Virus record (IMG/VR): IMGVR_UViG_3300010158_000128
Coordinates: 1-43,728 of that record
Strand: one strand, 5' to 3'
Length of the DNA: 43,728 nucleotides
From: a virus
The translations under genes were made by a program, and so were the position numbers. The stretch's first letter is position 1. Every line of letters begins with the position of its first letter. A model generated the notes under the pieces. It worked only from the letters and a program-made list of their open reading frames with translations. It ran no database searches and was not told the origin of the DNA. Positions 1,149 to 39,251 of the stretch are shown one piece after another.

Positions 1149-1451
1149 ATGTCTGCTAATTATAAAAATACCAGCCCTTGGTACTCTACAAAAACAACTA
1201 ATAATTATTTAGGTGTACTAACAATTAGACCGGTTAGTGCTGAAAAAGATGACTTTTTATATACAATTGAAAGTCAGTATACTTATCGTCCAGATTTATT
1301 AGCATTTGACTTATACGGCGATGCCGCTCTATGGTGGGTTTTTATACAACGTAATCTTGATGTACTACAGGATCCAATTTTTGATTTTGTCCCAGGCAAA
1401 AAAATATATATTTGTAAAAATAGTAGCCTTAAACTAGCACTAGGATTATAA
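1149..1451 (+). CDS. 53: Baseplate wedge subunit, gp53-like
   Basis: 100 residues, about half the length of T4 gp53 (196). gp53 joins neighbouring baseplate wedges around the hub. The conserved signature is visible: RPDLLAFDLYG (47-57), LWWVF (61-65), QDPIFDF (74-80) and a PGKKIYI strand (82-88). This is the compact form common in marine T4-like phages. The start codon lies 2 bases after the preceding stop with no strong ribosome site, which suggests translational coupling. The next gene begins 1 base after its stop. Placement between a junction protein and the hub/spike genes repeats the T4 order 53 then 5 and supports the call. Confidence 0.82.
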   Translation: MSANYKNTSPWYSTKTTNNYLGVLTIRPVSAEKDDFLYTIESQYTYRPDLLAFDLYGDAALWWVFIQRNLDVLQDPIFDFVPGKKIYICKNSSLKLALGL

Positions 1452-3669: not shown

Positions 3670-3671
3670 TT

Positions 3672-5486: not shown

Positions 5487-5926
5487 GCTCAAATGCTAAT
5501 CTATATAAAAAAATAACACTACCGGCTATCAATCACACTGAGTCGGTAAGGCCAAAAATGTACAAAGGATTCAGTACTGTTAATACTAATACTGAGAATT
5601 ATAATTTATACGATTTTGAGTTAATTAAGCAGGACTTGTTCAATCATTTTTATACACGGCAGGGTGAGCGTTTAATGCAACCTAACTTTGGTACAGTGAT
5701 ATGGGACTTGTTATTTGAACCATTAACTCCAGAGATAAAAGACATTATATTGAAAAATGTTAATACTATTATTAATTATGACCCTAGAATTAAAGCGGAA
5801 AATGTTGTTGTAACGGGCTACGATCAAGGTATACAAATTCAATGCACGCTGACATTTCTTGCTTACAACATTCAACAAACGCTACAATTAAGATTTGATC
5901 AAGCTAACGGTTTACTGGCACAATAA
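5483..5926 (+). CDS. 25: Baseplate wedge subunit, gp25-like
   Basis: 147 residues, close to T4 gp25 (132). gp25-like proteins form the inner core of the wedge and start sheath assembly. Seen here: YDFELIKQDLFNHFYTRQGERLMQPNFG (about 43-70), then WDLLFEPLTPEIKDII (74-89). FEP (78-80) stands where the family has its conserved EPR motif, with Leu replacing Arg. The C-terminal half is a beta-alpha region with DPRIKAENVVV and IQCTLTFLAYNIQQTLQLRFD. The start codon overlaps the spike stop by 4 bases (ATGA) and is preceded by a strong AGAGGAGG purine run. It ends just before a late-promoter-like element. Confidence 0.88.
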   Translation: MSSNANLYKKITLPAINHTESVRPKMYKGFSTVNTNTENYNLYDFELIKQDLFNHFYTRQGERLMQPNFGTVIWDLLFEPLTPEIKDIILKNVNTIINYDPRIKAENVVVTGYDQGIQIQCTLTFLAYNIQQTLQLRFDQANGLLAQ

Positions 5927-5971: not shown

Positions 5972-8900
5972 ATGAGTTCAACTGATAGACAAAATAATTT
6001 ATTAATTAGCGAAGACTGGAAGAAAATTTATCAGTCGTTCCGCAATGCAGATTTTCAAAGCTACGACTTTGAAAACTTGCGTAGGACCATGATTACATAT
6101 TTGCGTACCAATTATCCTGAAGATTTTAACGATTATATTGAGTCTAGCGAATACCTTGCCCTTGTGGATCTTATTGCATTCTTGGGCCAAAGCATAGCTT
6201 TCCGTGTGGACTTAAATGCTCGTGAAAATTTCTTAGAACTAGCAGAACGTAGGGAAAGTGTGCTAAGATTAGCACGTTTGATAAGCTACAATGCTAAACG
6301 CAACATACCTGCTAGCGGTTTATTAAAATTCACAACAATCAGAACTACTGAAACAGTGGTTGATAGTAACGGTAGAAATTTGGCCGGGCAAATTATAACT
6401 TGGAATGATCCTGCCAACTCAAATTGGTACGATCAATTTATCAAAGTTATGAATGCCGCAATGAGTTCAACTCAACAGTTTGGAAATCCTAGTGATAAAG
6501 CAACAATATACGGAATTCCTACTAGTCAATATCGCTTCCAAGGTGCAAATACTGATATTCCTATCTATACTTTTTCAAAGTCAGTTGCTGGTAGAAATAT
6601 GAATTTTGAGATTACCAGCACAACTTTTAGCGGCCAAGATTATATCTACGAAGAAACTCCTAAAATTGGAAATCATCCAGCTTGCATTTACAAAGAAGAC
6701 GGCCACGGTTCAAGTAGTCCAGGAACAGGATTCTTTTTTAATTTTACACAAGGTACATTGAGTACTGGCTCTTTTACAATTACTCAGCCAAGTTCAAATG
6801 AGTCAGTTGATGTAGCAACTACAAATATTAATAATAATGATGTGTGGTTGTATCGATTAGACGAACGGGGTTCTGAAACTGAGCTATGGACAAAAATTTC
6901 AAGCCTCGAAGGTAATAATGTAATTTATAACAGTCTTAACAAAAGTATTAGAAATATATATTCTGTAATCACACGAGCAAACGATTCTATTAGTTTGGCA
7001 TTTAGTGACGGCACATTTGGAAATTTGCCACTTGGCACATTTAGAACATATTATAGGATTAGTAACGGACTTAGGTATGTTATTAACCCTGCTGATATTA
7101 GAAATATTTCTATTTCCATTCCTTATATTTCAAAAAAAGGACAAACTGAAACATTAATAGTTACACTAAGTCTTCCTACTTCTATTTCTAATTCAGATAT
7201 TGCTGAAACTAATACATCTATCAAAGCAAATGCTCCAGCAACATACTATACACAAAATAGAATGATTACTGCTGAAGATTATAATATTAGTCCGTTATCT
7301 GTTACACAACAAGCCGCTAAAATTAAAGCAGTTAACAGAACTGCTAGCGGAATTAGTCGATATTTTGACCTTAAAGATCCTACGGGAAAATATAGTTCAA
7401 CTAATTTGTATGCCAATGACGGTGTGTTATATCAAGATTCATATGTAGAATATACAAAATTTAATTATGCAACTAAAACAGATATTGAAGGAATTATACG
7501 AAATACAGTATACGACATTATTAAAAAATCTGAGTTAAGAAATTTTTATTATTCCAACAACGTTACTTTTTTATCTGCAAGTCTTCCTATTGCATGGTAT
7601 AGACAAACAGCAGATAGTAATTCTTCTACGGGATATATCGGTGATATCTCAGATAACAATGTTGCTTACTCTGTAGGATCATATACTTCTACAGATTTAA
7701 AGTATCTCACACCTGGTGCATTAATTAAATTTTTACCGCCAACTGGAAAATACTTTGATTCAACTAATGGAAATGTATTAGTATCAATTCCTACCGGATA
7801 TACTACTGCGGATAAGCCTGGTGCATTGTCTTATATATGGGCAGAAGTTATATCAGTAAACAGTGCAGGAACAGACTTGTCTCAAACTAACGGCCCAATA
7901 ACGTTAAATCAAGTTATCCCATCAAATGCAAAAATTATTCAGATTATACCTAAATTAGCTACCTCATTGAGTACCTCAATAATTGCAACAATGATTGATT
8001 TAGTTTATTCTAACAGGCCATTTGGGTTGCGATATAATGCTGTTATACAATCCTGGCAATTAGTTTTTGAAACTAATTTAGATCAGACTAACGCATTTAG
8101 TTTAAGTAAACAAGGCAATAATACTAATAAAAATCAAGACTCGAGTTGGATATTGATGTTCACAACTGATAATGAATATTATACTATAACTACTCGGTTG
8201 TTAAGATATGTATTTGAAAGCGATAAAGAAACAAGATTTTATTTTGATGATAACATTCGAATTTACGATAATACTTCTAACTCTATCGTTGGTGATACAA
8301 TTAATATTTTGAGTATTAATACCAAACCTTCGAGTATTACATCTTTTACAACAGATCTATCTTGGGATGTTATTTCTTCATATAGCGGAATGGATGGATA
8401 TATTGATAATAAAAAACTAGTAGTATCTTTCCAAGATAGCGATAATAATGGAGTAGTTGACAATCCACAAATGTTTTTAGATATTGTTTCTGCAAACGGA
8501 GTAGACTTTACATCATACATTGTACAAGAAAGATATGCAATTTCAGCCGGTCAAGAAGACTATCGATACGTTAGTAATGACAATAATAAAATATTGATTT
8601 TAAGTTCACAGCCTAGATCATTTGCAGGATATGCAGACGGACAATATTTTTATTTTGCAGATACTGGAGTTGTAAAAGTATACAGTACTAAACTTGGTAT
8701 TGCTCAACCAACACTCGATTATAAAGTATATCCTGGCCGAGCTGATTTAAAATTTCAATACACACATAGTGCTGATTACGAATCTAGAATTGATCCAGGT
8801 GCAAGCAATATTATTGATATCTATGTTTTAACCAAGGCATATGATACACAATTTAGACAATGGATTGACGGTGCCGCCACAAAACAACCATTGCCGCCAA

Positions 8901-9427
8901 GCTCAGCTGAGTTGTATAATACAATTGGACCGTCTTTGGGATTAATTAAATCTATTAGCGATGAAATTGTATACCACCCTGTAAATTATAAAATTTTATT
9001 TGGAAGCACAGCAACAATAGATGTTCAAGCTAGTTTTAAAATAACTAAAAATGTAAACTCGGTGGTGTCTGATAACGATATTAAGTCGAGGGCAATTACT
9101 GCAATAAATCAATTCTTTACATTGGACAATTGGAACTTTGGCGATATATTTTATTTTACAGAATTATCTACTTATGTAATGAATCAACTTGCTCCTGACA
9201 TTACAAATTTTATTATTGTTCCAAGACAAGCTGGGTCTTATTTCGGTAGTTTATTTGAAATTAAATGCCCAAGCGATCAAATCTTTATTAATGGTGCAAT
9301 TGTTTCTGATATTGAAATTATTTCTGGAATCACTTCCGGCAATATTAAATCAGTAACGGGAACGGCATTAGATTCAATATATACACAAAACATAACTAGT
9401 TCAAACTACGGAGCATCGAATGGCTGA
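5972..9427 (+). CDS. 6: Baseplate wedge subunit, gp6-like
   Basis: 1151 residues against 660 in T4 gp6. gp6 dimers form the continuous inner ring of the baseplate. The N-terminal region (about 10-115) is well conserved for the family: WKKIYQSFRNADFQSYDFENL, then LRTNYPEDFNDYIESSEYL, DLIAFLGQSIAFRVDLNARE and AERRESVLRLARLISY. The middle (about 330-480) contains LAFSDGTFGNLPLG and TYYTQNRMITAEDYNISPL, the baseplate-J-like segment in which gp6 relatives have a beta-alpha fold. The extra length lies mostly in the beta-rich region about 500-1000. The C-terminus returns to conserved sequence (FTLDNWNFGDIFYFTELSTY). It starts 16 bases after a late-promoter-like motif and overlaps the giant gene by 8 bases. 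Confidence 0.88.
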   Translation: MSSTDRQNNLLISEDWKKIYQSFRNADFQSYDFENLRRTMITYLRTNYPEDFNDYIESSEYLALVDLIAFLGQSIAFRVDLNARENFLELAERRESVLRLARLISYNAKRNIPASGLLKFTTIRTTETVVDSNGRNLAGQIITWNDPANSNWYDQFIKVMNAAMSSTQQFGNPSDKATIYGIPTSQYRFQGANTDIPIYTFSKSVAGRNMNFEITSTTFSGQDYIYEETPKIGNHPACIYKEDGHGSSSPGTGFFFNFTQGTLSTGSFTITQPSSNESVDVATTNINNNDVWLYRLDERGSETELWTKISSLEGNNVIYNSLNKSIRNIYSVITRANDSISLAFSDGTFGNLPLGTFRTYYRISNGLRYVINPADIRNISISIPYISKKGQTETLIVTLSLPTSISNSDIAETNTSIKANAPATYYTQNRMITAEDYNISPLSVTQQAAKIKAVNRTASGISRYFDLKDPTGKYSSTNLYANDGVLYQDSYVEYTKFNYATKTDIEGIIRNTVYDIIKKSELRNFYYSNNVTFLSASLPIAWYRQTADSNSSTGYIGDISDNNVAYSVGSYTSTDLKYLTPGALIKFLPPTGKYFDSTNGNVLVSIPTGYTTADKPGALSYIWAEVISVNSAGTDLSQTNGPITLNQVIPSNAKIIQIIPKLATSLSTSIIATMIDLVYSNRPFGLRYNAVIQSWQLVFETNLDQTNAFSLSKQGNNTNKNQDSSWILMFTTDNEYYTITTRLLRYVFESDKETRFYFDDNIRIYDNTSNSIVGDTINILSINTKPSSITSFTTDLSWDVISSYSGMDGYIDNKKLVVSFQDSDNNGVVDNPQMFLDIVSANGVDFTSYIVQERYAISAGQEDYRYVSNDNNKILILSSQPRSFAGYADGQYFYFADTGVVKVYSTKLGIAQPTLDYKVYPGRADLKFQYTHSADYESRIDPGASNIIDIYVLTKAYDTQFRQWIDGAATKQPLPPSSAELYNTIGPSLGLIKSISDEIVYHPVNYKILFGSTATIDVQASFKITKNVNSVVSDNDIKSRAITAINQFFTLDNWNFGDIFYFTELSTYVMNQLAPDITNFIIVPRQAGSYFGSLFEIKCPSDQIFINGAIVSDIEIISGITSGNIKSVTGTALDSIYTQNITSSNYGASNG

Positions 9428-12400
9428 TAGTATTAACCCTGCAGGATCCAACAAAGGTCTTGGAGTAAATTTTCTTCCAAATTTTTATAAAACTGATGCT
9501 AATAAGAGATTCCTCCAGGCTACTATTGATCAGTTAGTACAACCAGGAACTGTTAAAAAAGTCAACGGATATGTTGGCCGCCAGTATGCTAAATCAACTA
9601 CGGGTACTGATATTTTTATAGAAGCTGCCAGTAAAACTAGACAGAATTATCAATTAGAACCAGGGTTCACGGTAAACGATACTCTAGGAAATAATACGTT
9701 TTTTAAAGATTATATAGATTATATTAATCAGTTGGAAGTGTTTGGATCTAATACTAGTAACCATGCACGTTTAAACAAGCAAGAATTCTATTCATGGGAC
9801 CCTCATGTAGATTGGGACAAATTTGTTAATTTTCAAAATTATTACTGGTTACCTTACGGCCCTGAGACTATTAAAATATATGGACAACAGATTAATGCTA
9901 TTAGTTCGTATTCTGTAAAAATACAATTAGAAGGTGCTAACAATCAATATGTATTTACTCCTAACGGACTAACTGCTAATCCCGTTGTTAAGTTGTACCG
10001 TGGACAGACGTATAGCTTTGAAATTGACAGTATTGGTAATCCGTTCAGTATCAAAACTGCAAGAACTACTAGTGTAGCTGACATATTTTCTGCTGGAGTT
10101 ATTAATAACTCAATCGAAACAGGAATTTTAACTTTTAAAATTCCGGTAAATTCCCCTAATGTATTATATTACCAAAGTGAAACAGATTTAAATCTTGGCG
10201 GCGTATTTCAGATTTATGACATTGACGAAAATTCATTTATAGATGTTGAAACTGATATTATTGGAAAGAAATTTTATACATTGAGTAACGGAACCAAATT
10301 AAGCAATGGAATGAAAGTATCTTTTGGCGGTAATGTAAATCCAATTACGTATGCAAAAGGTGAATACTATGTTGAAGGAGTTGGCACTGCTATACAACTG
10401 ATCAACAAATCTATCTTAGAAGTATCTAGCGTATATTCACGATCTGAAGTATTGAAATTTGATTCAACACCTTTTGATAGTGACGGGTTTGGCGATTCAA
10501 CAGGATTTGCAAAAACTCTTGATTACATTGTTATCAATCGTGCAAGTTTAGACCATAATCCGTGGTCAAGGTATAATCGTTGGTTCCATAAAGATGTTAT
10601 AGAAACTAGTGCAAAATACAATAATGCAAATGTAGGACTAGATCAAACACTCCGTGCTGTAAGACCTATTATTGAATTCGAAGCTAATTTAAAATTATTT
10701 AATTTTGGTACTACTGCGGTTGCAGATATTGATCTAGTTGATTCATTTACGACTGATGCATTTTCTATTATTGAAGGTAAGCTCGGTTATAATGTTGATG
10801 GAGTCAGTCTTGCCGAAGGACAACAAATTTTGTTCCTAGCAGATACTGATCGTTTAGTAAAAAATAATTTGTATAAAGTAGAATTTATTGATGTATTACA
10901 TTTAAATGAAGGCAGCAGACAAATTCGATTGGTTAAAGTTGCTGAACCAATTCTCAACGATGTTGTGCTAGTTAAACAAGGAAATTCAAACCAGGGTTTG
11001 ATGTATTGGTATAACGGTACAACCTGGTTACCAGCACAGCAAAAAACTGATGTTAATCAAGCTCCGCTATTTGACATTGTTGATAATTTAAATCAAAGTT
11101 TTGGCAATAAGACAGTATACGACGGTACTACATTTTTAGGTACAAAGTTATTTTCTTATAAAACTGGAAACGGCACACCTGATACAAATTTGGGATTTGC
11201 ATTATCTTATAAAAATATTGCAAATATTGGTGATATTGTCTTTAATTTTAATTTAGCAACTGATACATTTCAATATAAAGATATTATTACTATTATTAAT
11301 AAATCTATTAAGACTGGATATCTTGTTAAAACTAGCTATACAGGAAAAATTAATTTTGTTAATGGCTGGCAAGTTGCAACAACACCTACTACTCAAGCCG
11401 CAATACGAATTTATAAAAACTCTAATAAAACAAATAATTTTAATATTGATCTATTTGATGATATGTCAAATCTTAACGATTTAGTTGTTCGAGTTTATAT
11501 TAATGGCAAACGTCTTGCACGAAACCACTGGAATTTAGTTAACAACTCTGATTATAAAAGTATTGTTCTCAAGTCAGATATTTTATTAACTGATGTATTG
11601 ACTATTCGAACATTTGCCGCCCAGCCTATTAATTCCAATGGTTTCTACGAAATTCCAGTCAATTTAAAAAACAATCCGTTGAATAGTGAAATTCCAAATT
11701 TTACATTAGGCGAAGTCATTGATCACGTTGATAGTATTATTGATAATATCTACATGGAAGAAGCTGACGATATAGAAGAAGCCGAATACGATCTAGCTAG
11801 CGATACCACATTCATTGGAGTATTCCCAGGTGCCAGCAATTTACGAGATTTGGGAAATGTAACTCAGTATGGCACTAAATTTGTACAGCACAGCGGACCT
11901 GCAAGTCTAAGTTTATATCATATTACATCTAGTACAAACAATATTGTTCGTGCTATAGAACAAGCACGTGATAATTATAATCAATTTAAACGTAATTTTA
12001 TTTCAACTGCTACTGCACTTGGAGTCAACACAACTCCAATCGAACAAGTAAATTTAATTTTACAAGAAATTAATAAAGATAAACCTAATAATTTTCCATA
12101 TTATTTTAGTGATATGGTTCCATATCGTGCAAGTTCTAAAAATGATATCACTGTAATAGACGGTAGGATAAAATTTTATCCTCTAACTAACGTATTTAAT
12201 TTAGACAATTTATCTAATAAAGCAGTTGGCGTGTATTTAAACGGTGTACAATTAATATACAAAAAAGATTATACGTTTGATAGTCAGGGATTTGTGAACA
12301 TTTCTGCCACATTAGTAGAAAATGATATCATTTCAATCTACGAATACGACAGCACAGACGGTAGTTTTATTCCAGAAACACCTACTAAATTAGGCATGTG

Positions 12401-15400
12401 GCCCGCATATGAGCCTAAAATATATCTTGATACTAGTTTACGAACACCTCGTATGATAATACAAGGCCATGACGGTAGCCAAATATTGGCTTACAATGAT
12501 TATAGAGATAATATAATATTAGAATTAGAAAAACGTATTTTTAATAATATAAAAATTTCTTATGATACCAATATATTTGATATTGCAGATATTATTCCTA
12601 GTTACAATAGAACAACTGATTATAGTTTATCTGAATTCAATGAAGTACTTGCACCTAGTTTTTACAAATGGTCAAGTTTAATTGATAAAGATTTTACAAA
12701 ACCTTTTGGTTATAATAAAGACGATGCTTTTACCTTTAACTATAGTGGGCATAATGCTCCTGATGGCCGAAGACTTCCAGCTTATTGGAAAGGCATATAT
12801 CATTGGATTTTAGATACTGAACGCCCGCAATTGTGCCCGTGGGAAATGCTTGGTTTCACTATTGAACCTTTATGGTGGCAGCAGTTATACGGTCCTGCTC
12901 CGTATACTAGTGATAATCGGGTAATGTGGCAAGATATTGCAGACGGTGCAGTGCGTGAGCCAGGAGCTCCTGCCACTTATTCAAAAAAATATGCAAAGCC
13001 ATTTTTAATGAATCATATTCCAGTTGACGAATTTGGAAATATCATTAGCCCCCTTGCGGCAGGATTATCAACTAGTCCGCTAACTGCCCTACCCACTGAC
13101 GGCTTTGTATTTGGAGACATTGGACCTGTTGAATCTACATGGAGACGTAGCAGTTATTATGCTTTTAGTGTTATTTTAACTTCAATGTTATTAACACCAT
13201 CAAAAACATTTGGTATACTACTTGATAGATCTAGGATCATACGGAATCTTACCGGGCAATTAATTTATAAAGATACTGGACTTCGTGTCACTCCTGCTGA
13301 TATTACATTCCCTAGTATATATTCAAGTACGACCCGAACACAAACTTCGGGAATTATAAATTATATTGTAAATTATATTCTAAGTGATAATTTAAAATCC
13401 TACACTGATTATCAATACGATTTATTACACATTAAAACACAATTAAGTTATCGAGTAGGTGGCTTCACCAGTAAAGAAAAATTTAATTTATTATTAGATT
13501 CAAAATCTCCACTGTCGTCGGGAAATGTGTTTGTCCCTCCAGAAAACTATACTACTATTTTAAATATTTCAAGCCCTGTACGTAAAATTACTTACAGCGG
13601 AGTTATTGTAACTAAAATATCTAGTACTGAGTACGAAGTAAAAGGTTACAGCAAAACTCAGCCTTATTTTAAAATTTATAATTTTTTACAATCTGGGATA
13701 ACAATAAATGTAGGCGGTATATCAGAAAGTTTTACTAACTGGATAGCTAATCAAAATTATGTTGCAGGTAAAGTAGTTAAATTTGCAAATAAATTTTATA
13801 GAACAACAATATCGCATTTATCGCAATCTAGTTTTAACCTAAATAATTTTAAATCATTACCAGCGTTACCTATTATAGGCGGACGTGATGCTATACTAAG
13901 AAAAACTTGGGATCGAGAATCGACAATTACTATCCCGTACGGAACTAGATTTAGATCTCCGCAGGAAGTTGTTGATTTTTTAATAGGATACGGTGAATGG
14001 TTGAAAGATCAAGGATTTATCTTTGACGACTTTAATACAACATTGAATGCAGTTACCAACTGGGAAACAAGTGCCAAAGAATTCTTGTTTTGGACAACAC
14101 AGAATTGGGCAACCGGCCAGGAGTACTGGGTTGAATGGAGTCCTTTAGATGCAGTAGAGTACGGCAATGTTGTTAGATACAATGGGGATTACTTTCAGGC
14201 CCTTAGAAAAGTAGAAGCCAACGCAATATTTAATGAAGAACTGTTTGTTAAACTTGAAAGTTTAAGCAGTATTGGAAGTCCAGTTATTAGTCTTAGTCCA
14301 GCCGCAGAAAAGATAATTTTTAATGCAAACTTATGTGTTATTGATGATATTAGAAATCCATTCAACGGATATGAAATTTTCAAAGCTGACGGTACTCCGT
14401 TAGAAGCAATATTTATTAATTCTTACAGAGAAGACAACGCAGTGAGCTATAGTTCTCGCACTGCTGACGGCATATACGGTGCAAGTTTTTATCTAATACA
14501 ACACGAACATGTGGTATTATTAGATAACTCAACTATGTTTAATGATACTATCTATAGTCCGTCAACTGGCTATAAACAAGATAGAATCAAAGTTGCAGGT
14601 TATGTTAGCAATGAATGGTACGGTGGTCTTGATATACCTGGGTTTATTCTTGATGTTGCAAAAATAGAAAATTGGATTGCTTGGCAAGACTACGATTTAG
14701 GAGATATTGTCAAGTACAAGCAATTCTTCTATACTGCAAGTAAATTCCTAATAGGTGCCCAAACATTTGTAGACAAAGATTGGATTAAACTTGATAAGAA
14801 ACCAACTACCCAGTTGCTACCAAATTGGTCCTACAAGGCAGCTCAATTTGAAGATTTTTACAGTCTTGATAGCGATAACTTTGACGCCGGCCAGCAAAAA
14901 ATGGCACAGCATTTAATTGGATATCAAAAACGCCAATATCTTGAAAATATCATTCAGAATGATGTTAGCGAATTTAAATTCTATCAAGGAATGATTATTG
15001 AAAAAGGTACACAGAACAGTCTTAATAAATTGTTTGATGTACTAAGTGCTGAAGGACAGGATAGTTTAACATTTTACGAAGAATGGGCACTCCGTGCGGG
15101 ACAATACGGAGCAAGTTCTGCTTTTGATAATGTAGAATTTATATTAGACGAATCACTTGTTAAAAACAATCCTCAAGGTTATGAATTATCAGACACACTG
15201 AATACATCTACTGATTTTATTATAAGACAAAATGCTAATCAAGTATATTTAAAACCTATAGGTTATAATAATAACCCTTGGCCTATAGTTAATAATTATC
15301 GACCTTTTTTACGTAGTGCAGGATATGTAAGATCATCTGAAGTATTTTTAAGTTTAAAAAATCTTAGCGATATAATATCTTATGACATTACAACATTTAC

Positions 15401-18400
15401 TAATAAATGTTATATTTGGGTAACGTTTGAAAAGAATGATTGGAACATTTATCAATTTACTAATTCTAATATTAATGTAAGTGACCTTCAATATGATCCT
15501 GGATCTACAACACTTACAGTAACTACAACAGAATTGCTAACATTAACAGTCGGTGAATATATTGGATTATCTCAAGTTCCGTTGTTGAATGGATTTTATA
15601 AAGTTACATCAGTGGCTCAAAATAAATTTACTATTTCAATAACTATTAAAGGTTGGAGCCAACAACTTGTTCCTGCATTGATACTTAAAATAAACGTAAA
15701 TTCATTGATTAGTCGCCGACTACTATCTATTGACAATATTGATCAATCTATTACTTCTAATTTAGAATTAGGCGAGCAGATATGGACAGACGATGCAGGA
15801 ACTGGCAACTGGGCATCCTGGGAATATACCCCAGTTTATGAAATCACTGAATTAACAAATTCAAGTCCTGCAAATTTACTGAATTACGGTCGATACATTG
15901 CATCTAATCTGCAAGGTACTGTAGTTGCAGTTTCAACTACATTAGGAGAATTGCAAACTTGGGACAAAGCCGGATATAAATCTCCTTGGTTACAACGACA
16001 AAACATACAACGTCCTTATATTTCAAGTGTTGCTGGTACTGGAACAATTGCTGGCCCAACTGGTAATCTTCCTAAAAACATTGCTACTGTAACTGCTATT
16101 TCGCCTGATGGTAAGTGGCTAGCGACTGGATCAAAACTAGCTAGTAATGTGTACACACGTATTAAATTATCAGGGCCTTATGAAGTAGGAGACATTGTAT
16201 ACAATGCAGTTGATACGTATTACTACGAAGCTCGTACAGCCACATCAACTACGGTGTTTAGTAATGCCAGTATTTGGAAAAAATTATTATATGTTCCGGT
16301 AACACTTACTCCTGGGGTAGATAGCGGCTTAACTGAACAGGGCGTTATTTCTTTATACAAAAAAGATTCAAATAACGTATTCACAATAGTTAATTCTATC
16401 GTTAGTCCAACTCCTACCAATTACGAACGTTTTGGTTCCAATTTAATATTTGGTGATAATGTTTTATACATTGCCGCATCTGGATACAATAGCAATTCTG
16501 GAAAAATTTATAAACTAGAATATAAAACTACAGTTTATAAGACTGCTTATTATAATCCAGTTGGTAGTTCGTCTACTACACTTGCATTATCAAAAGATGT
16601 TGGTTCATCGGTAAATTCAACGGTTGGCATTTTACTAGGAATGATTATTAGCGGTACTGGGTTTACTAAGGGTCAGACTGTTTTAGAAGTATTAGGTAAC
16701 GGAAAAACTTTAACTATTAGTGCTCCTGCTGATAGCACACCAAGCGGAAAACTTAGTTTTTCTTTTACTGGCTGGGGCTACAATAAAGAAGAAACATACG
16801 AAGGTGCTATTGCAAATGCTAATTTAGGAAGTTCGTTAGCTATTAGTTCTGATAATAATACTTTAGTAATATCGTCAAATAATGGTACAACAGCTGGAAA
16901 AGTTCTTATTGTTACTAATCCTGGCCCGGATAATACTCGACAAATATTACAAGGAACCACTACCAGTTTCGGAGAAACTATTGCACTGTCATTAGACGGC
17001 TCTTATCTTGCTATAGGAGATAAGTTATTAGCTGGCAGCAAACAATTCCAAGGAAATGTTACTGTATATGAAAAAACATTATCAGGCTATGCTGTTTATC
17101 AAGAATTAGTAAATCACAAATCAGAAGAATCTGGATACTTTGGTAGTAGAGTTGCATTTATGAACGGCGACAACACACTTGTAGTTTACAGTTCGTATGA
17201 AGATACTATTATAAAAACGTCATTAGATCAATTTGCAAATACACTATCAACGTTTTCGTATGTAGGTTCTAACGATACTATTCTAACATCAACTTATGTA
17301 AAAGATACTTTATCTACTCGAAACAAATATGCCACTACATTTGATAAAGATTCTACACGATTTGTTTCCACTAATGTTGATAGCGGCCGCATTGATATCT
17401 ATGACAAGTATTCAAGCAAGTGGGTGTATAGTGAAACTCTTAATAATACATTAAAAGTTCGAGATGGTTACGGTATTGGATTTGCAGTAGGCAATGATAG
17501 AATACTAGTAGGCTCGCCGTATGCATTGGATCGTAATTTAATTTCAGGAAAAGTATTTGATTATTTAAAACCACCTGCAACTAATAGTTGGTCAATCAAG
17601 TATCAAGAGATTAACAAACCTGATATTAATAAAATTAGAAAAGCCTTTTTATATAATCGAATAACAGGTAAATTATTAACGTATCTTGATGTAATTGATG
17701 TTGCACAAGGCAGGCCCGCTGGTCCAGCCGCAGAAGAAATTAAATACCAATCATTCTACGATCCTGCAATTTATTCAGTAGGAACTGGGAATGTTAATGT
17801 TGATGCTGACTCTCCTTGGAATAAGGCACAAGTTGGCCGACTATGGTGGGATTTACGTACTGCTAAATTTATCAATAGTTATGACTCTGATGTATTATAT
17901 AGAACCAATACTTGGAATACACTAGCAACTGGATCAAGTATTGATGTTTATGAGTGGGTTGAAACTTCGCTTCTTCCAGATGCATGGAATAAAATATCTG
18001 ATACAGAAGCAGGTATTTCAGCTGGCGTTAGCGGAACATCTTTATATGGAAATGGAGTGTATGCATTAAGGCAACGATACGATTCTATTAATCAATCTTT
18101 TAAAAATACATATTACTATTGGGTAAAGAATAAAAAAACTATCCCTAGTGTAACTGGTCGATATTTGACATCACAAGATGTTGCAAGTTTGATAGAAAAT
18201 CCAAGAGGTCAAGGTTACACTTACCTTGCACTAACTGGAACTAATTCGTTTAGTTTAATTAATGCAAAGCCGCATTTAAAAGATACAGAAGTTGTATTGT
18301 CTATTGAATATTGGACTACCGATAAAATTGACAGTAATGTACACAGTCAGTGGAAAATTATTAATAATGATGCTAACACTGTACTTCCTGGTAGTATTGA

Positions 18401-21400
18401 ATTAAAATGGTTTGATAGTTTGTGCGGAAAAGATCTAGCTGGTAGAGAGGTTCCTGATGTGACATTACCTCCTAAATTACGTTACGGTATAGAAAATCGT
18501 CCTCGACAGGGTATGTTTGTTAATCGATTTGAAGCATTAAAGCAATTTATTGAACAAGTTAACTTGACACTAAAAACAGAACAAATTGTAACAACTAGAG
18601 ATTTATCTAAATTAAAACTATATGATGTTGCACCGAGTTTAGTTACGGGTCTTTACGATAGTACAGAAAATACAAATGCTGAAATACGATTTGTAAATGT
18701 CGGAGCATTTAAACGCCCAATATTTGGAAATCCTATAATTGTAGATGGAAAAATAACTGGGCTTGATATTCAGTTTCCGGGAAGAGGGTATGTACACGCA
18801 CCTTATATAAACATTATTGGTTCAGGAATTGGTGCTAAAATACGTGCTGTAATCAATGCTGTTGGCCAGATAACTGGAGTGAAAGTATTATCACCAGGTG
18901 AAGGATACGATAGCAACACTACTGCATCTGTGAGAGACTATTCTGTATTGGTATATAGTGATAGCCAAGCTCAGGGATCATGGGCACTATATAGTTATGA
19001 ACCAACAGAAAACGTATGGTCTAGATTACAATCTCAAACTTACGACACACAAAAATATTGGTCTTATGTAGATTGGTTTGCTACTGGTTATAATCAATTT
19101 ACCGCAGTTGACCATGCAGTTGACACACTAGCAGAACTAAATTCTATTACTGTTGAAATAGGACAACTAGTTAAAGTACGCAATCCAAGTTCTGGAAACT
19201 GGTTGTTTATGGAAAAATATGCCAACAATGATTTATTTGATTATACTAGATCTTATAATGTTGTTGGTATTGGAAACGGAACAATACAATTTAATTCTTC
19301 TATCTATGAATCTGCTAATACTGATGAAGGGTATGACGGTTCAACATATGACGGTGCGGTATTTGATAATGCACCCACAACTGAATTGCGTATTATTTTA
19401 ACTGCATTAAAAGATGATATTCTAATTGATGAATTACGGGTAAATTATTTAAATTTATTCTTTACAACTGTACGTTATGCACTTAGCGAACAAGTATATC
19501 TTGACTGGATTTTTAAATCAAGTTTTATCAAAGCACGACACAATGTAGGCTTATTAAATCAGCCTGTTACATATAAAAATGATAACTTAGCTGACTATCA
19601 AGAATACATTGCTGAAGTTAAACCTTACAAAACAAAAATTAGAGAATATGTAAGCTCATATCAAAACACAGAATTAAGTAGTACACTAATATCAGATTTT
19701 GATTTGCCTCCACGATATAAAAATAACAAAATAATAACGATGGATGCATATGTAAATCACGGATCGTTAGTAACGCTCGACTCTGCGTTTAATTCTTATC
19801 CTTGGAAAAATTGGGTTGATAATTTGGGATTTGTTATCAAAGAATTAAAAATTATCAACGGTGGGTCTGGTTATATTACCGAACCTGTTGTTCGTATTTT
19901 AAGTGATTCTGGATCCGGAGCTACCGCTAGGGCATTTTTCTCTAATGGCATACTTAATCGCATTATTTTATTAACGCCTGGCAGCGGATATTTGTCAGCA
20001 CCAGCCGTTATTATTGACGGTGGCATACTTTCAAATGGAACTCCAGCCAAGGTAGTTGCAGTGATAGGAAAAGGATTACCAAGATCAAATTTAATTCAAA
20101 TAAAGTTTGATAGAATAACTCAATCTTGCTATGTTACACATTTAGAAGAAACTGAAACATTTAGTCCCAACGGTTCTCGCTTGCAATTTCCGCTAACCTG
20201 GGCACCTGATAATACAATTGGATCCTCAACTGTTACTGTTTCTGGAGTTACAGCGTTGCGTGATTCTTATAAATTATCAGTTGTATCAACTAAGATAGAA
20301 GGTAGTACACGATACTCGGGATTGATTACTTTTGATTCTGCACCAACTGGTATTATTTCTGTAACCTATAAAAAAAATATAATCTTATTAAATGCCGCCG
20401 ATCGAATTAAATATTTTTATAATCCGCAAGAAGGCGATATTGGAAATGATTTAAGCCAACTAATGACAGGCATTGATTACGGCGGTGTTGTTATCACTGG
20501 GCTAGGATTTGATATAAGCACTGGCTGGGGCGTCCTGCCTTACTTTACAGATAAGTGGGATTCGGTTGATTCAGCATTTGATGATTATATTGTCAATGTT
20601 CGTGCAAACACACATACATTCCCATCAAATGCTGCAGACTCTTTGCCTGCAACATGGGCTGTTGGATCTGAAATTAACGTCTATCATACAAAACGTAATG
20701 TAGAAACACACATAGCAGTTGCAGATCAGTTAGTATATTCTTATAATGTTTACGAAGATAATCCAGAAATTTCGCTAGTATATCCTACTATTTCTGGCGG
20801 AGTTGATTCTAATTACGATGCATCCACTAATTATGCAAGTACGACACTTAAGGTAACAAGCACTTCTGGCATCACAGCCGGCATGATTATTATTGGAACA
20901 GGATTCACATCGGGCCAGACAGTAATACGCACAATAAACAGTACAACATTGACTATTAGTGCTCCTGCAGATAGTGAACCAAACGGTACATTACATTTTA
21001 CACATAGTATCCGTGGAGGAACTACAGTACAATTGTCGTCAACAAATGGGATATTTGTCGGCGACGTCATAAAAACTTCTTCTATATCTGCATTCGGATA
21101 CGGAACGATTGTAAAAGAAATTACACCTATTGGTGTAATTCTTGATCAAATTATATATGAAACACTCTTACCAGCAACACCATTGGAATTCAGCCGAAAT
21201 TTAATAATTCCAACTAATGTTAACATTTACACAGCTGGAATTATTACATTAAAAGAACCAGCTGAAGTTGGTAGTATTATAAAAATAATTGGAAATCTTG
21301 GCCCGTTCAGATTAGATGATCCAGACTTTGGAACTTCTAATCAAACAAATCCTGAAGCAATATTGACTACACCAATATATACCGGCAATATCACACAAAC

Positions 21401-24014
21401 TATTAGCATACCAACCGATTATGTGATTAACGATAACGATACTATTATATTACGTAAAAGTACAAGCGACGGTTCAATTAAATCTCAGGATACTGATTAT
21501 GATACTGCACTAAGTGGCGGAGAGTTTGTTGGAAATTATAGTACAGGCATCTTTACTTCTGCTACTGGATTACTAGCAGATGATATTATTTTAGATGGTG
21601 ATGATTTAATTTCTCCAACAACAAGTCCTGCACCTGAGGAAGTTGTTCCTGGTCAAGTAGTTGATACAGTTGCTATTAAAGTGTACGATCAACCACCGTC
21701 TGGATCTGCTAATATTAAAATAGATAATTTTATTGCAGACGGCGAAACTACAATATTTAAATTATCTCTCCAACCAAATACTGCTGAAGCAGTAATAGTA
21801 CGCACAGGCCTAGACTTACAAACTAACGGCACTGAATATACCATCGATTATAGGAATAAACAAGTTATTTTTGATGTTGCTCCTGCGGCAGGAACAATTG
21901 TAACCGCATATATTATTGGATTCAACGGCAGTAATATATTAGATATCGATTACTTTGTTGGAGACGGTGTAACACAAGAATTTATTACAAGAGCTCCTTG
22001 GTTAGCATCTACAACTACTCTAATTTATGTAGACGGTATGCCTGTAACACCAGATATATTTAAAACTGATAACACTTATAATAGTATTAATAGAGTAGCT
22101 ATGCGTTTTGGAGTTGCTCCTGAAGCCGGTGCATTATTAAGTTTTATAGTAGTTGCTGGAGACCAACAATCATTTGCTGTAACAAAAACTGAACACATAC
22201 TTACTAACGGATCCAATGTGTATACTTTAGAATATAAAGTTGGTGATTCGTTGCCAAACGAATCAAATATGTTAGTTCGAGTTAACAATACTATTATACC
22301 AGGCCCAATTAATAGTTATTTTACAATTTCAAATAATCGATTAAACTATACAATTGATCCAGTTAAGGTAATTCCGTATTCAACTGCAATTGGTAATATT
22401 TTTGTTTATATTGGCGATATAAAATTAAATCTTGGATCAGATTACACAATTGACCTTGGAGGAATAACTGTCAAGATTAATAAATTAATTTATTCGCAGT
22501 ATGCAAAACAAACATTAGTAGTAAGTGTTACTACAGATCAGGGTTATTCTTATAACCAATCTACAAATCAAATTACGTTTGTTGAATCATATTCTAATTT
22601 AGACGTTGTAGAAGTTATTAGTTCTTATAGACACGATATTTTAGATATTGAAAGAACAACTTTAAATGTATCGTCTAATCTTTCAATAACTCCTGATTCT
22701 GTTGAATATTATTCTTACAAAGGCATTACTAATGGGACACTAACATTGGATCGTGCTATTATTAGCGACAGCTATGTATGGGTTATTCAAAATGAAAATA
22801 TACTTGTTCCTAGTGTTGACTATAAGTTAAACGAAAATCGAACAAGTATACAACTCACAGTTGACCCTTCAATCGATGATAAAATCACATTAATGACATT
22901 TGGTAGCAATATACTAATGGCCGGCATTTCTTATATGCAATTTAAAGATATGTTAAATCGTGTACATTATAAACGATTAAGCCTGAATAAACGAACTATA
23001 TTAACAACAGATTTAAGTTTTGATGATAGAATTATTGAAGTAGAAAATGCTGATAACTTTGATAAACCAAACCCACTTAAAAATAAACCAGGAATTATTG
23101 AAATTCGAGGAGAGCGTATTGAATTTTACGAAATAAATGGCAACGTGTTGAGTAAATTGCGTCGGGGAACTTTAGGAACAGGTACTCCTCTTGTACATAA
23201 AGCTGGGACATATGTCCAGGAGTTGGGCCCAACAGAATCTATACCCTATGTTGATTCTTCAATAGTTGACCACGTAATATCTGACGGAGAAAGTATTATT
23301 ATTCCGTTAAATTTTATACCTTCTAAATCAAATATTGAGAAATGGTTTACTAATTTTGGATTTACATTATTGGATAACTATAACGATTCTGGAAGTTATA
23401 ATGCAAACGATGTGGTAGTTTATAATAATTTATATTATGTAAACATAAAATCTTATGTATTCAATTCTGCTGTAACTATACTTCCAACAAACGTAACTTA
23501 CTGGAAATTGTACAATACTACGATTCCTGTAGGCTACGGGCAATGCGACAAAATTGAAGTGTTTGTTGGTGGATATGATACTAGTGTAGATTGGTTACCA
23601 AAGGTAACATATCTTCCAGGTATAATAGTAACATTAGGAAGTTATACATATCAGTGTTTAACTGAACATACTAGTACAAGTAATTTTAAAAATGATATTG
23701 CCAACTGGACATTTTTTATTGGCAATATCAGATTAAAGAAATCTCCGTACAATATGCATAACGAAAATCAAGCACCAAATAGCCCGCTAGGCGATATTAA
23801 GTTAGATGCTGAATTCTCAGTTGACGGTGTATCAGCATCGTTGCGGTTAACACATAAGTTATCTTTTGGAACACGCATTACTATTATTAAACGAAACGGA
23901 ACTGATTGGGATAGTAACACCAATATTCAATACGATAACAGTAAAATTGCTGAGTTTTTAAAGGCAACTCCGGGCATATGGTATGCTGAAAATGCTATTC
24001 CTACTGTGCAATAA
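9420..24014 (+). CDS. Giant baseplate/virion structural protein (position of T4 gp7)
   Basis: 4864 residues in one uninterrupted frame, about half a megadalton. It follows gp6 with an 8-base overlap, as gp7 does in T4, so it is probably a wedge protein of the outer baseplate. The N-terminus (about 11-153) looks conserved: NFLPNFYKTDANKRFLQATI, FFKDYIDYINQLEVFG, then HVDWDKFVNFQNYYWLPYG. A Trp-rich block at about 1114-1177 includes PAYWKGIYHWILDTERPQLC and EPLWWQQLYGP. Carbohydrate-binding-like W/Y modules lie near 1438, 1570, 1750, 2247, 4658 and 4724. A propeller-like region spans about 2154-2719, GxGY repeats lie near 3100 and 3480, and DGxTxxF beta-sandwich repeats at about 4101-4254. There is no signal peptide, coiled coil or membrane segment, so it is not a tape measure. 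The exact T4 counterpart is uncertain. Confidence 0.75.
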   Translation: MADSINPAGSNKGLGVNFLPNFYKTDANKRFLQATIDQLVQPGTVKKVNGYVGRQYAKSTTGTDIFIEAASKTRQNYQLEPGFTVNDTLGNNTFFKDYIDYINQLEVFGSNTSNHARLNKQEFYSWDPHVDWDKFVNFQNYYWLPYGPETIKIYGQQINAISSYSVKIQLEGANNQYVFTPNGLTANPVVKLYRGQTYSFEIDSIGNPFSIKTARTTSVADIFSAGVINNSIETGILTFKIPVNSPNVLYYQSETDLNLGGVFQIYDIDENSFIDVETDIIGKKFYTLSNGTKLSNGMKVSFGGNVNPITYAKGEYYVEGVGTAIQLINKSILEVSSVYSRSEVLKFDSTPFDSDGFGDSTGFAKTLDYIVINRASLDHNPWSRYNRWFHKDVIETSAKYNNANVGLDQTLRAVRPIIEFEANLKLFNFGTTAVADIDLVDSFTTDAFSIIEGKLGYNVDGVSLAEGQQILFLADTDRLVKNNLYKVEFIDVLHLNEGSRQIRLVKVAEPILNDVVLVKQGNSNQGLMYWYNGTTWLPAQQKTDVNQAPLFDIVDNLNQSFGNKTVYDGTTFLGTKLFSYKTGNGTPDTNLGFALSYKNIANIGDIVFNFNLATDTFQYKDIITIINKSIKTGYLVKTSYTGKINFVNGWQVATTPTTQAAIRIYKNSNKTNNFNIDLFDDMSNLNDLVVRVYINGKRLARNHWNLVNNSDYKSIVLKSDILLTDVLTIRTFAAQPINSNGFYEIPVNLKNNPLNSEIPNFTLGEVIDHVDSIIDNIYMEEADDIEEAEYDLASDTTFIGVFPGASNLRDLGNVTQYGTKFVQHSGPASLSLYHITSSTNNIVRAIEQARDNYNQFKRNFISTATALGVNTTPIEQVNLILQEINKDKPNNFPYYFSDMVPYRASSKNDITVIDGRIKFYPLTNVFNLDNLSNKAVGVYLNGVQLIYKKDYTFDSQGFVNISATLVENDIISIYEYDSTDGSFIPETPTKLGMWPAYEPKIYLDTSLRTPRMIIQGHDGSQILAYNDYRDNIILELEKRIFNNIKISYDTNIFDIADIIPSYNRTTDYSLSEFNEVLAPSFYKWSSLIDKDFTKPFGYNKDDAFTFNYSGHNAPDGRRLPAYWKGIYHWILDTERPQLCPWEMLGFTIEPLWWQQLYGPAPYTSDNRVMWQDIADGAVREPGAPATYSKKYAKPFLMNHIPVDEFGNIISPLAAGLSTSPLTALPTDGFVFGDIGPVESTWRRSSYYAFSVILTSMLLTPSKTFGILLDRSRIIRNLTGQLIYKDTGLRVTPADITFPSIYSSTTRTQTSGIINYIVNYILSDNLKSYTDYQYDLLHIKTQLSYRVGGFTSKEKFNLLLDSKSPLSSGNVFVPPENYTTILNISSPVRKITYSGVIVTKISSTEYEVKGYSKTQPYFKIYNFLQSGITINVGGISESFTNWIANQNYVAGKVVKFANKFYRTTISHLSQSSFNLNNFKSLPALPIIGGRDAILRKTWDRESTITIPYGTRFRSPQEVVDFLIGYGEWLKDQGFIFDDFNTTLNAVTNWETSAKEFLFWTTQNWATGQEYWVEWSPLDAVEYGNVVRYNGDYFQALRKVEANAIFNEELFVKLESLSSIGSPVISLSPAAEKIIFNANLCVIDDIRNPFNGYEIFKADGTPLEAIFINSYREDNAVSYSSRTADGIYGASFYLIQHEHVVLLDNSTMFNDTIYSPSTGYKQDRIKVAGYVSNEWYGGLDIPGFILDVAKIENWIAWQDYDLGDIVKYKQFFYTASKFLIGAQTFVDKDWIKLDKKPTTQLLPNWSYKAAQFEDFYSLDSDNFDAGQQKMAQHLIGYQKRQYLENIIQNDVSEFKFYQGMIIEKGTQNSLNKLFDVLSAEGQDSLTFYEEWALRAGQYGASSAFDNVEFILDESLVKNNPQGYELSDTLNTSTDFIIRQNANQVYLKPIGYNNNPWPIVNNYRPFLRSAGYVRSSEVFLSLKNLSDIISYDITTFTNKCYIWVTFEKNDWNIYQFTNSNINVSDLQYDPGSTTLTVTTTELLTLTVGEYIGLSQVPLLNGFYKVTSVAQNKFTISITIKGWSQQLVPALILKINVNSLISRRLLSIDNIDQSITSNLELGEQIWTDDAGTGNWASWEYTPVYEITELTNSSPANLLNYGRYIASNLQGTVVAVSTTLGELQTWDKAGYKSPWLQRQNIQRPYISSVAGTGTIAGPTGNLPKNIATVTAISPDGKWLATGSKLASNVYTRIKLSGPYEVGDIVYNAVDTYYYEARTATSTTVFSNASIWKKLLYVPVTLTPGVDSGLTEQGVISLYKKDSNNVFTIVNSIVSPTPTNYERFGSNLIFGDNVLYIAASGYNSNSGKIYKLEYKTTVYKTAYYNPVGSSSTTLALSKDVGSSVNSTVGILLGMIISGTGFTKGQTVLEVLGNGKTLTISAPADSTPSGKLSFSFTGWGYNKEETYEGAIANANLGSSLAISSDNNTLVISSNNGTTAGKVLIVTNPGPDNTRQILQGTTTSFGETIALSLDGSYLAIGDKLLAGSKQFQGNVTVYEKTLSGYAVYQELVNHKSEESGYFGSRVAFMNGDNTLVVYSSYEDTIIKTSLDQFANTLSTFSYVGSNDTILTSTYVKDTLSTRNKYATTFDKDSTRFVSTNVDSGRIDIYDKYSSKWVYSETLNNTLKVRDGYGIGFAVGNDRILVGSPYALDRNLISGKVFDYLKPPATNSWSIKYQEINKPDINKIRKAFLYNRITGKLLTYLDVIDVAQGRPAGPAAEEIKYQSFYDPAIYSVGTGNVNVDADSPWNKAQVGRLWWDLRTAKFINSYDSDVLYRTNTWNTLATGSSIDVYEWVETSLLPDAWNKISDTEAGISAGVSGTSLYGNGVYALRQRYDSINQSFKNTYYYWVKNKKTIPSVTGRYLTSQDVASLIENPRGQGYTYLALTGTNSFSLINAKPHLKDTEVVLSIEYWTTDKIDSNVHSQWKIINNDANTVLPGSIELKWFDSLCGKDLAGREVPDVTLPPKLRYGIENRPRQGMFVNRFEALKQFIEQVNLTLKTEQIVTTRDLSKLKLYDVAPSLVTGLYDSTENTNAEIRFVNVGAFKRPIFGNPIIVDGKITGLDIQFPGRGYVHAPYINIIGSGIGAKIRAVINAVGQITGVKVLSPGEGYDSNTTASVRDYSVLVYSDSQAQGSWALYSYEPTENVWSRLQSQTYDTQKYWSYVDWFATGYNQFTAVDHAVDTLAELNSITVEIGQLVKVRNPSSGNWLFMEKYANNDLFDYTRSYNVVGIGNGTIQFNSSIYESANTDEGYDGSTYDGAVFDNAPTTELRIILTALKDDILIDELRVNYLNLFFTTVRYALSEQVYLDWIFKSSFIKARHNVGLLNQPVTYKNDNLADYQEYIAEVKPYKTKIREYVSSYQNTELSSTLISDFDLPPRYKNNKIITMDAYVNHGSLVTLDSAFNSYPWKNWVDNLGFVIKELKIINGGSGYITEPVVRILSDSGSGATARAFFSNGILNRIILLTPGSGYLSAPAVIIDGGILSNGTPAKVVAVIGKGLPRSNLIQIKFDRITQSCYVTHLEETETFSPNGSRLQFPLTWAPDNTIGSSTVTVSGVTALRDSYKLSVVSTKIEGSTRYSGLITFDSAPTGIISVTYKKNIILLNAADRIKYFYNPQEGDIGNDLSQLMTGIDYGGVVITGLGFDISTGWGVLPYFTDKWDSVDSAFDDYIVNVRANTHTFPSNAADSLPATWAVGSEINVYHTKRNVETHIAVADQLVYSYNVYEDNPEISLVYPTISGGVDSNYDASTNYASTTLKVTSTSGITAGMIIIGTGFTSGQTVIRTINSTTLTISAPADSEPNGTLHFTHSIRGGTTVQLSSTNGIFVGDVIKTSSISAFGYGTIVKEITPIGVILDQIIYETLLPATPLEFSRNLIIPTNVNIYTAGIITLKEPAEVGSIIKIIGNLGPFRLDDPDFGTSNQTNPEAILTTPIYTGNITQTISIPTDYVINDNDTIILRKSTSDGSIKSQDTDYDTALSGGEFVGNYSTGIFTSATGLLADDIILDGDDLISPTTSPAPEEVVPGQVVDTVAIKVYDQPPSGSANIKIDNFIADGETTIFKLSLQPNTAEAVIVRTGLDLQTNGTEYTIDYRNKQVIFDVAPAAGTIVTAYIIGFNGSNILDIDYFVGDGVTQEFITRAPWLASTTTLIYVDGMPVTPDIFKTDNTYNSINRVAMRFGVAPEAGALLSFIVVAGDQQSFAVTKTEHILTNGSNVYTLEYKVGDSLPNESNMLVRVNNTIIPGPINSYFTISNNRLNYTIDPVKVIPYSTAIGNIFVYIGDIKLNLGSDYTIDLGGITVKINKLIYSQYAKQTLVVSVTTDQGYSYNQSTNQITFVESYSNLDVVEVISSYRHDILDIERTTLNVSSNLSITPDSVEYYSYKGITNGTLTLDRAIISDSYVWVIQNENILVPSVDYKLNENRTSIQLTVDPSIDDKITLMTFGSNILMAGISYMQFKDMLNRVHYKRLSLNKRTILTTDLSFDDRIIEVENADNFDKPNPLKNKPGIIEIRGERIEFYEINGNVLSKLRRGTLGTGTPLVHKAGTYVQELGPTESIPYVDSSIVDHVISDGESIIIPLNFIPSKSNIEKWFTNFGFTLLDNYNDSGSYNANDVVVYNNLYYVNIKSYVFNSAVTILPTNVTYWKLYNTTIPVGYGQCDKIEVFVGGYDTSVDWLPKVTYLPGIIVTLGSYTYQCLTEHTSTSNFKNDIANWTFFIGNIRLKKSPYNMHNENQAPNSPLGDIKLDAEFSVDGVSASLRLTHKLSFGTRITIIKRNGTDWDSNTNIQYDNSKIAEFLKATPGIWYAENAIPTVQ
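15879..17576 (+). other. Beta-propeller-like region inside the giant protein
   Basis: Residues about 2154-2719 contain repeated blades of the FG-GAP/WD type: YIASNLQGTVVAVST, ATVTAISPDGKWLATGSK, YERFGSNLIFGDNVLYIAAS, GSSLAISSDNNTLVISS, FGETIALSLDGSYLAIGD, YFGSRVAFMNGDNTLVVYSS and GIGFAVGNDRILVGSP. Two foreign modules interrupt the series: a W/Y carbohydrate-binding-like unit (about 2247-2294) and the GTGF module (about 2388-2449). The propeller fold is inferred from repeat pattern only. Confidence 0.6.
16581..16766 (+). repeat. GTGF module, copy 1, in the giant protein
   Basis: Encodes a roughly 60-residue beta module with GMIISGTGFTKGQTV and LTISAPADSTPSGKL. A second copy lies at 20841-21005, about 1420 residues later. 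The two share ACTATTAGTGCTCCTGC exactly at DNA level; elsewhere only the protein pattern is kept. Confidence 0.75.
18735..18920 (+). repeat. GxGY module, copy 1, in the giant protein
   Basis: Encodes FPGRGYVHAPYINIIGSGIG, then GAKIRAVINAVGQITGVKVL, then SPGEGY. This is the G-x-G-Y-x-x-x-P pattern of short beta repeats found in phage and surface structural proteins. The related copy is at 19851-20024. Confidence 0.65.
19851..20024 (+). repeat. GxGY module, copy 2, in the giant protein
   Basis: Encodes NGGSGYITEPVVRILSDSGS, then GATARAFFSNGILNRIILL, then TPGSGYLSAPAVIIDGG. It has the same spacing of GSGY, P-x-V and GATA-like strands as the copy at 18735-18920, indicating internal duplication about 370 residues apart. 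Confidence 0.65.
20841..21005 (+). repeat. GTGF module, copy 2, in the giant protein
   Basis: Encodes GITAGMIIIGTGFTSGQTV and LTISAPADSEPNGTLHF, matching the copy at 16581-16766. Here it sits outside the propeller-like region, before the DGxTxxF beta-sandwich repeats, so it behaves as a mobile domain within the protein. Confidence 0.75.
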
Positions 24015-24062: not shown

Positions 24063-24677
24063 ATGCAGAGTCAAGAAACAACTGGAATCCACATAGAAGG
24101 GCACATTAAAATTTATAACCCAGAATCTGGGGAAATCTTTATCAATAAACGCAATGCCATACACTATGAAAACATCAGTATTGCCCTAGTCAACAGTCTT
24201 GCTGATAGTGGAAACGGGTTCGTTTATGAAATGGGATTTGGGAACGGCGGCACTGCTGTTGACCCAACAGGAATTATTACCTACTTGACGCCAAATAGTT
24301 CGGGATCAAATGCAAGTTTATATAATCAAACATATTCCAAAGTAGTTAATCAAAATTCAAGCAATAATTTAGACCCTAGTAGAAATTATATTGAAGTAAG
24401 GCATGTAACTGGTACTAATTATAGTGATTTATTTGTTACTTGTTTGTTAGATTACGGCGACGGCAACAATTCAGGACAATTGGCCTTTGATAATGCAACT
24501 ACTACAAATGGTACTTTTGTGTTTGATGAGCTGGGTTTAAAAAGTTACAGCAGTTCTGGTAATAGTTTATTATTGACCCATGTAGTTTTCCACCCAGTAC
24601 AAAAAAGTTTAAACAGGCTTATTCAAATTGATTATACTGTACGCATTCAGAGCTTAACTGGCTTAGTAGGAGTTTAA
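24063..24677 (+). CDS. Conserved virion structural protein, function unknown
   Basis: 204 residues. The pattern GHIKIYNPESGEIFINKRNA (about 13-32), YEMGFGNGGTAVDPTGII (about 55-72), YLTPNSSG, a FDELGL segment and the C-terminal HPVQKSLNRLIQIDYTVRIQ recalls a family I associate with the baseplate/fibre region of marine T4-like phages, with no assigned role. It is beta-rich, has no coiled coil and no signal peptide. It starts 20 bases after a late-promoter-like motif with a GAGAG ribosome site, and the first tail-fibre gene follows 3 bases after its stop. A small fibre-attachment or baseplate accessory protein is the most likely role, inferred from context only. Confidence 0.6.
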   Translation: MQSQETTGIHIEGHIKIYNPESGEIFINKRNAIHYENISIALVNSLADSGNGFVYEMGFGNGGTAVDPTGIITYLTPNSSGSNASLYNQTYSKVVNQNSSNNLDPSRNYIEVRHVTGTNYSDLFVTCLLDYGDGNNSGQLAFDNATTTNGTFVFDELGLKSYSSSGNSLLLTHVVFHPVQKSLNRLIQIDYTVRIQSLTGLVGV

Positions 24678-28483: not shown

Positions 28484-28490
28484 CAAATAG

Positions 28491-28498
28491 AATAAATA
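28491..28498 (+). promoter_or_regulatory. Late-promoter-like AATAAATA upstream of the third fibre
   Basis: AATAAATA followed by CTG lies 7 bases after the preceding stop and 23 bases before the next start. An AAGGAA ribosome site lies between. It lacks the upstream TAAACTACG string seen at 70 and 5924, so support is weaker than for the other three. Confidence 0.4.
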
Positions 28499-28521
28499 CT
28501 GTAGAATAAGGAACAAGTGAG

Positions 28522-39221: not shown

Positions 39222-39251
39222 ATTTGCTCCTAATGTTTGCTGTATGTATAT

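Follow-up and report, generated by a model that had tools for sequence, protein, structure and literature searches.

A 4,864-residue phrog_10938 protein encoded directly after gp6, most likely in the structural place of T4 gp7 in the baseplate wedge of a jumbo myophage

Giant virion proteins encoded directly after the baseplate wedge gene gp6 have already been catalogued in jumbo phages, where they form the family phrog_10938. The PHROG label for this family is just "virion structural protein", in the category head and packaging, which counts against a wedge assignment. We found homologous giants in 10 named jumbo phages, and in nine of these the gene directly follows gp6: Phosso (XYS97451, 4,555 aa), Atu_ph07 (gp180, 4,449 aa), PA5oct (gp355, 3,857 aa), Vibrio phage 2.275.O (3,771 aa), CBB (CBB_236, 3,340 aa), PBECO4 (gp538, 3,333 aa), RaK2 (ORF070, 3,326 aa), XacN1 (3,313 aa) and RAS14 (3,138 aa). 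The order gp25-gp6-giant is common to PBECO4, CBB, PA5oct, RaK2, Vibrio 2.275.O and XacN1; in Phosso, Atu_ph07 and RAS14 it was judged from the size and place of an unnamed gene before gp6. In SCTP-2 (L100), the giant (3,807 aa) is preceded by a 9.3-kb frame that is not gp6, and a gp6 match lies elsewhere in the genome. CBB_236 was detected in virions with 21 peptides (PMC5259590), and the record of PA5oct gp355 is tagged ESI-MS/MS.

Cyanophages have giants of their own. In S-CAM3, MED4-213 and ACG-2014e, genes for gp25, gp6 and a giant (3,045, 4,458 and 3,495 aa, respectively) are followed by a separate gp8. Judging from the matching KGT position and size, these giants very probably correspond to phrog_2885 (4,179 positions, "baseplate wedge subunit"). 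T4 gp7 matches phrog_2885 weakly at the KGT position (E 1.3e-4), and the gp7 profile matches the MED4-213 giant at the KGT motif (E 0.006). It has been reported that pelagimyophages and cyanomyophages lack T4 gp7 and that VrlC appears to substitute for it (PMC7029224). Here, VrlC was set against the giants by annotation. It is probably not the gp6-adjacent giant and may be a neighboring gene, because the "virulence-associated structural protein" annotated in S-CAM3 follows gp8.

The stretch of DNA analyzed here (the window, 43.7 kb) is an entire IMG/VR record and probably belongs to a larger genome. Its baseplate and fibre genes near the giant are as follows, with the basis of each assignment in parentheses.

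1149..1451, + strand: gp53-like wedge protein (profile comparison)
3672..5486, + strand: gp5-like hub protein (profile comparison)
5483..5926, + strand: gp25-like wedge protein (phrog_261, phrog_43)
5972..9427, + strand: gp6-like baseplate wedge protein, 1,151 aa (phrog_10646, phrog_219)
9420..24014, + strand: giant virion protein, 4,864 aa, phrog_10938 family (frame, PHROG match, relatives, codon comparison)
24063..24677, + strand: 204-aa protein after the giant (phrog_11259; genes of similar size stand there in other jumbo phages)
24681..26813, + strand: collar-domain fibre protein with a gp12-like domain (Pfam Collar)

Thus gp53-, gp5-, gp25- and gp6-like genes precede the giant in that order. 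As the sequence-only reading had stated, one open frame of 14.6 kb lies directly after gp6; it runs from ATG to stop without an internal stop and encodes a protein of about 542 kDa. Its ATG falls among the final codons of the preceding gp6-like gene, so that the two frames overlap, and is immediately preceded by GGAGCATCG. The gp6 homologue is enlarged too, with 1,151 aa here versus 660 in T4. Downstream, three successive fibre-like genes at 24681-30018 (phrog_15511, phrog_14394 and phrog_8309) have an N-terminal region in common, which is perhaps a shared attachment domain. On the opposite strand, the window also encodes a ThyX-type thymidylate synthase (35924-36583; Pfam Thy1, E 1.9e-44) and a MoxR-VWA pair (38037-40388), in which an AAA/MoxR-type ATPase adjoins a VWA-like DUF2201 protein that has a putative metallopeptidase domain.

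The giant belongs to phrog_10938, which it matches in five stretches covering most of the protein (E 1.7e-295). An AlphaFold2 (AF2) model of residues 1-1060 (pLDDT 85, pTM 0.70) has Foldseek matches to the structures predicted for giants of other jumbo phages, among them Atu_ph07 (E 4.6e-65). The window protein therefore shares with its named homologues sequence, predicted fold and gp6-adjacent gene order, and homologues have proved to be virion proteins where this was tested; for the family, these data bear out the earlier description as a virion protein in the gp7 position. It is longer than all ten named homologues (4,864 versus 3,138-4,555 aa), and several modules, the cupredoxin-like one among them, are missing from or not aligned in PA5oct, SCTP-2, RaK2 and others. 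At least 590 stretches in IMG/VR encode relatives of its N-terminal part, and at least 587 encode relatives of residues 1440-2110. The proposal that it is a distinct architectural solution holds relative to T4, but a giant in the gp6-adjacent place is standard for this group of phages and already catalogued, not a new architecture.

The earlier view of the protein as a mosaic was largely correct, and most of the proposed modules were confirmed. The following features were mapped along the chain.

9420..9899, + strand: conserved N-terminus, residues 1-160, proposed docking part (family alignments)
9897..10235, + strand: cupredoxin-fold module, residues 160-272, copper ligands replaced at N207 and S253 (AF2 model, Foldseek)
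13737..13877, + strand: CBM5/12-like module, residues 1440-1486, strong (Pfam PF02839, family HMM, high-confidence model)
14133..14273, + strand: CBM5/12-like module, residues 1572-1618, strong (family HMM, high-confidence model)
14670..14810, + strand: CBM5/12-like module, residues 1751-1797, strong (family HMM, model, fold match)
14802..15194, + strand: helix-KGT-helix region, residues 1795-1925 (alignments, motif profile; low pLDDT in model)
15885..17519, + strand: FG-GAP-like propeller region, residues 2156-2700 (blade motifs)
16176..16304, + strand: weak CBM5/12-like module within the propeller region, residues 2253-2295 (family HMM, domain E 3e-4)
19866..20054, + strand: GSGY repeats, residues 3483-3545, common to cyanophage giants (sequence comparison, family HMM)
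22020..22631, + strand: beta-sandwich repeats, residues 4201-4404, weakly like T4 gp10 domains 2 and 3 (profile comparison)
22986..23228, + strand: module like the N-terminal insert of cyanophage gp7-position giants, residues 4523-4603 (hhalign probability 94.7%)
23376..23468, + strand: marginal CBM5/12-like module, residues 4653-4683 (family HMM, domain E 0.13)
23589..23711, + strand: weak CBM5/12-like module, residues 4724-4764 (family HMM, domain E 2e-5)

The N-terminus is strongly conserved in family alignments, as had been proposed; L19-P20, N28, F31, L39, G53, P81, Y124, W126, N137, Y141 and W143 are invariant in a 16-row alignment. The adjacent cupredoxin-fold module, which the sequence-only reading overlooked, matches CueO and rusticyanin in Foldseek searches and is related to cyanophage tail proteins. 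Type-1 copper ligands are absent from this module in the window, where N207 and S253 occupy positions at which His and Cys are expected, whereas modules of the relative L091 and of cyanophages S-SKS1 and Bellamy retain the His, Cys, His, Met pattern. Judging from these residues, the window's clade may have lost a metal site.

Carbohydrate-binding-like modules were likewise recovered. Pfam detects CBM5/12 above its cut-off in two stretches (E 9.2e-9), the family HMM finds six copies (three strong and three weaker), and the module fold was modeled. By their sequence and modeled fold, these candidate modules make it possible that the giant carries its own glycan-binding sites. The fold matches of the model of residues 1440-2110 include chains from the Milano structure of baseplate and receptor-binding complex, so the modules may instead be structural. 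Matches of the same model to Uba1 were dismissed (query TM <=0.10). The predicted propeller stands insofar as FG-GAP-like blade motifs occur at residues 2156-2700, but FG-GAP_2 passes the cut-off in relatives L008 and L013 and falls below it in the window's own sequence. A WD40 reading was rejected (Pfam E 0.005-0.07, below cut-off). Tryptophan is indeed enriched, but at residues 1001-1200, 1401-1600, 2001-2200 and 2801-3000 rather than in one core. The tandem beta-sandwich repeats were found again at the C-terminus, with a weak gp10 signal. PDB searches turned up no sequence-related solved structure except for the small CBM modules: phmmer with the whole giant gave chance matches only (picornavirus VP2, E 0.5), and the A4 profile fared no better (influenza PA, E 0.23).

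Comparison with gp7 itself centers on one motif. A KGT or KGS is present in all aligned giants between two predicted helices; in the window it lies at residue 1862, and K1862 and G1863 are invariant in a 24-row alignment. Similar motifs (KGI, KGV or KGT) are found in T4-type gp7, in cyanophage giants, in P2 gpI and in a protein of a Desulfovibrio phage. When a motif profile built from gp7, cyanophage and gpI sequences was used, the two KGT windows ranked first and second of all windows with probabilities of 9-18%; the maximum is 17.7%, and the next decoy or unrelated windows score close. The KGT part, modeled by AF2 without partners, has pLDDT mostly <=50. In RAS14 and XacN1 (L112 and L113), whose chains have 3,100-3,300 aa, the motif comes later, near residue 2340 rather than at about 1,480-1,980 as in other giants, so the order of modules or the size of an insert differs.

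T4 gp7 (1,032 aa; phrog_964) and the giant thus have in common their place after gp6 and a KG(I/T/V) motif that stands behind an FYS segment. They differ in that T4 gp7 is about five times shorter and has no significant profile or fold match to the giant. Profile comparison of the giant with gp7 gave no signal clearly above decoys, the phrog_964 and Pfam Gp7 domains (helical, V and VI) did not match it, and gp7 was not among the best 50 Foldseek PDB matches of the giant's models. When the KGT region was scanned against Pfam and PHROG, phrog_10938 alone came back with confidence, without Tail_P2_I, and profile comparisons of the giant with gp5, gp6, gp9, gp11, gp12 and wac found nothing. As a positive control, the jumbo gp6 profile matched T4 gp6 with 75% probability, so in this one case the method recognizes a diverged wedge protein, if without great strength. 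P2 gpI (Tail_P2_I) is the counterpart of gp7 in simple myophages. This 176-aa protein resembles the giant in having an N-terminal LLP and a KGT motif, but its motifs are about 75 residues apart versus about 1,840, and the profile comparison is not significant. Searched over their full length, 16 jumbo phage records yielded no separate T4-type gp7 (phrog_964); six of these records are IMG/VR contigs and possibly incomplete, and the absence pertains to related genomes, the window itself being a 43.7-kb record. Replacement of gp7 by the giant, as first proposed, agrees with position and with the absence of phrog_964 from those records, but is not reflected in a clear profile signal. Descent from T4 gp7 is no more than plausible, with the motif as a weak sequence lead.

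We consider it probable that the giant serves as a large wedge protein in the baseplate of a jumbo myophage, most likely at the structural position that gp7 has in T4. Its conserved parts (residues 1-160, about 300-1100, 1500-1560 and 1795-1925) would dock on the inner baseplate of gp6, gp25 and gp53, and the remainder, with its cupredoxin-like, CBM-like, propeller and beta-sandwich modules, would form a long radial arm that reaches outward and holds the fibres encoded just downstream. We infer contact with gp6, this geometry of the arm and one chain per wedge. A more specific proposal, which we advance only tentatively, makes the giant a genuine wedge protein of the gp7/gpI type in which the ancestral core was split: inserted modules of about 1,840 residues would lie between the N-terminal LP helix and the pair of helices around KGT, and an arm of a further 3,000 residues would follow, so that one chain would organize the whole outer baseplate.

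A role as a peripheral scaffold for tail fibres or adhesion, merely encoded after gp6 while part of the enlarged gp6 or another protein performs the task of gp7, appears unlikely. It would explain the many modules of tail-fibre type (cupredoxin-like, CBM-like and GSGY repeats) and the lack of significant gp7 homology. However, the family conserves the N-terminus over about 1,100 residues along with the KGT region but has a variable C-terminal arm, which is the pattern of an anchored core, and SCTP-2 is the sole exception to gp6 adjacency among the named relatives inspected.

The sequence-only reading had proposed that the giant replaces gp7, gp8 and gp10 together, a fusion that we regard as quite improbable. 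In its favor, the jumbo genomes searched yielded no full-length gp8 profile match, and the giant's C-terminus has a weak likeness to gp10 domains 2 and 3 that exceeds reversed decoys (32.5 versus 18.2). The gp10 match is nevertheless weak (28.8% probability over 177 columns), and its beta-sandwich type has been described also in branched tail fibres (PMC10253068). PA5oct moreover encodes, downstream of its phrog_10938 giant, a protein of gp10 C-terminal type (E 2e-17), which argues against absorption of gp10. For gp8, no domain was found in the giant by profile comparison, the score being barely above decoys (22.2 versus 20.7). Cyanophages keep gp8 as the gene next to their own giants. Those giants share with the window's protein the gp25-gp6-giant order, the GSGY repeats, the module at residues 4523-4603 and the KGT motif; they differ in lacking end-to-end homology, in their unlike N-terminal sequences and in this separate gp8.

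That several genes were joined by an assembly error or a hidden frameshift, for which unusual length is the sole argument, has practically no chance of being correct, since the same single frame occurs in independent contigs and isolate genomes and dN/dS is low from end to end. Close relatives (L008, with 4,866 aa counted from its first Met; L010/L011; L014) have full-length frames of nearly equal length, and all 4,864 codons align with those of L008. With dS near 0.9, dN/dS is 0.04-0.15 in each 400-codon block, with maxima near codons 2401-2800 and 3601-4000, and the giant is under purifying selection along its whole frame. More than 40 IMG/VR contigs carry giants, either complete or truncated by the contig end; intact lengths span 3,042-6,343 aa, the longest being that of L093. 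A broken giant was seen in one contig only (L068:5504-15114, two overlapping frames of 1,678 and 1,542 aa), reflecting either a frameshift or an assembly error.

The window protein is real and striking, yet it is one more giant of the phrog_10938 type. Aquatic jumbo phages commonly encode wedge giants of 3,000-6,300 residues, and the presence of phrog_10938 members in cultured phages makes their proposed role testable. If they are indeed expanded gp7 proteins, the conserved core of the contractile tail tolerates very large insertions, and the giants would supply a modular scaffold for host-binding parts.
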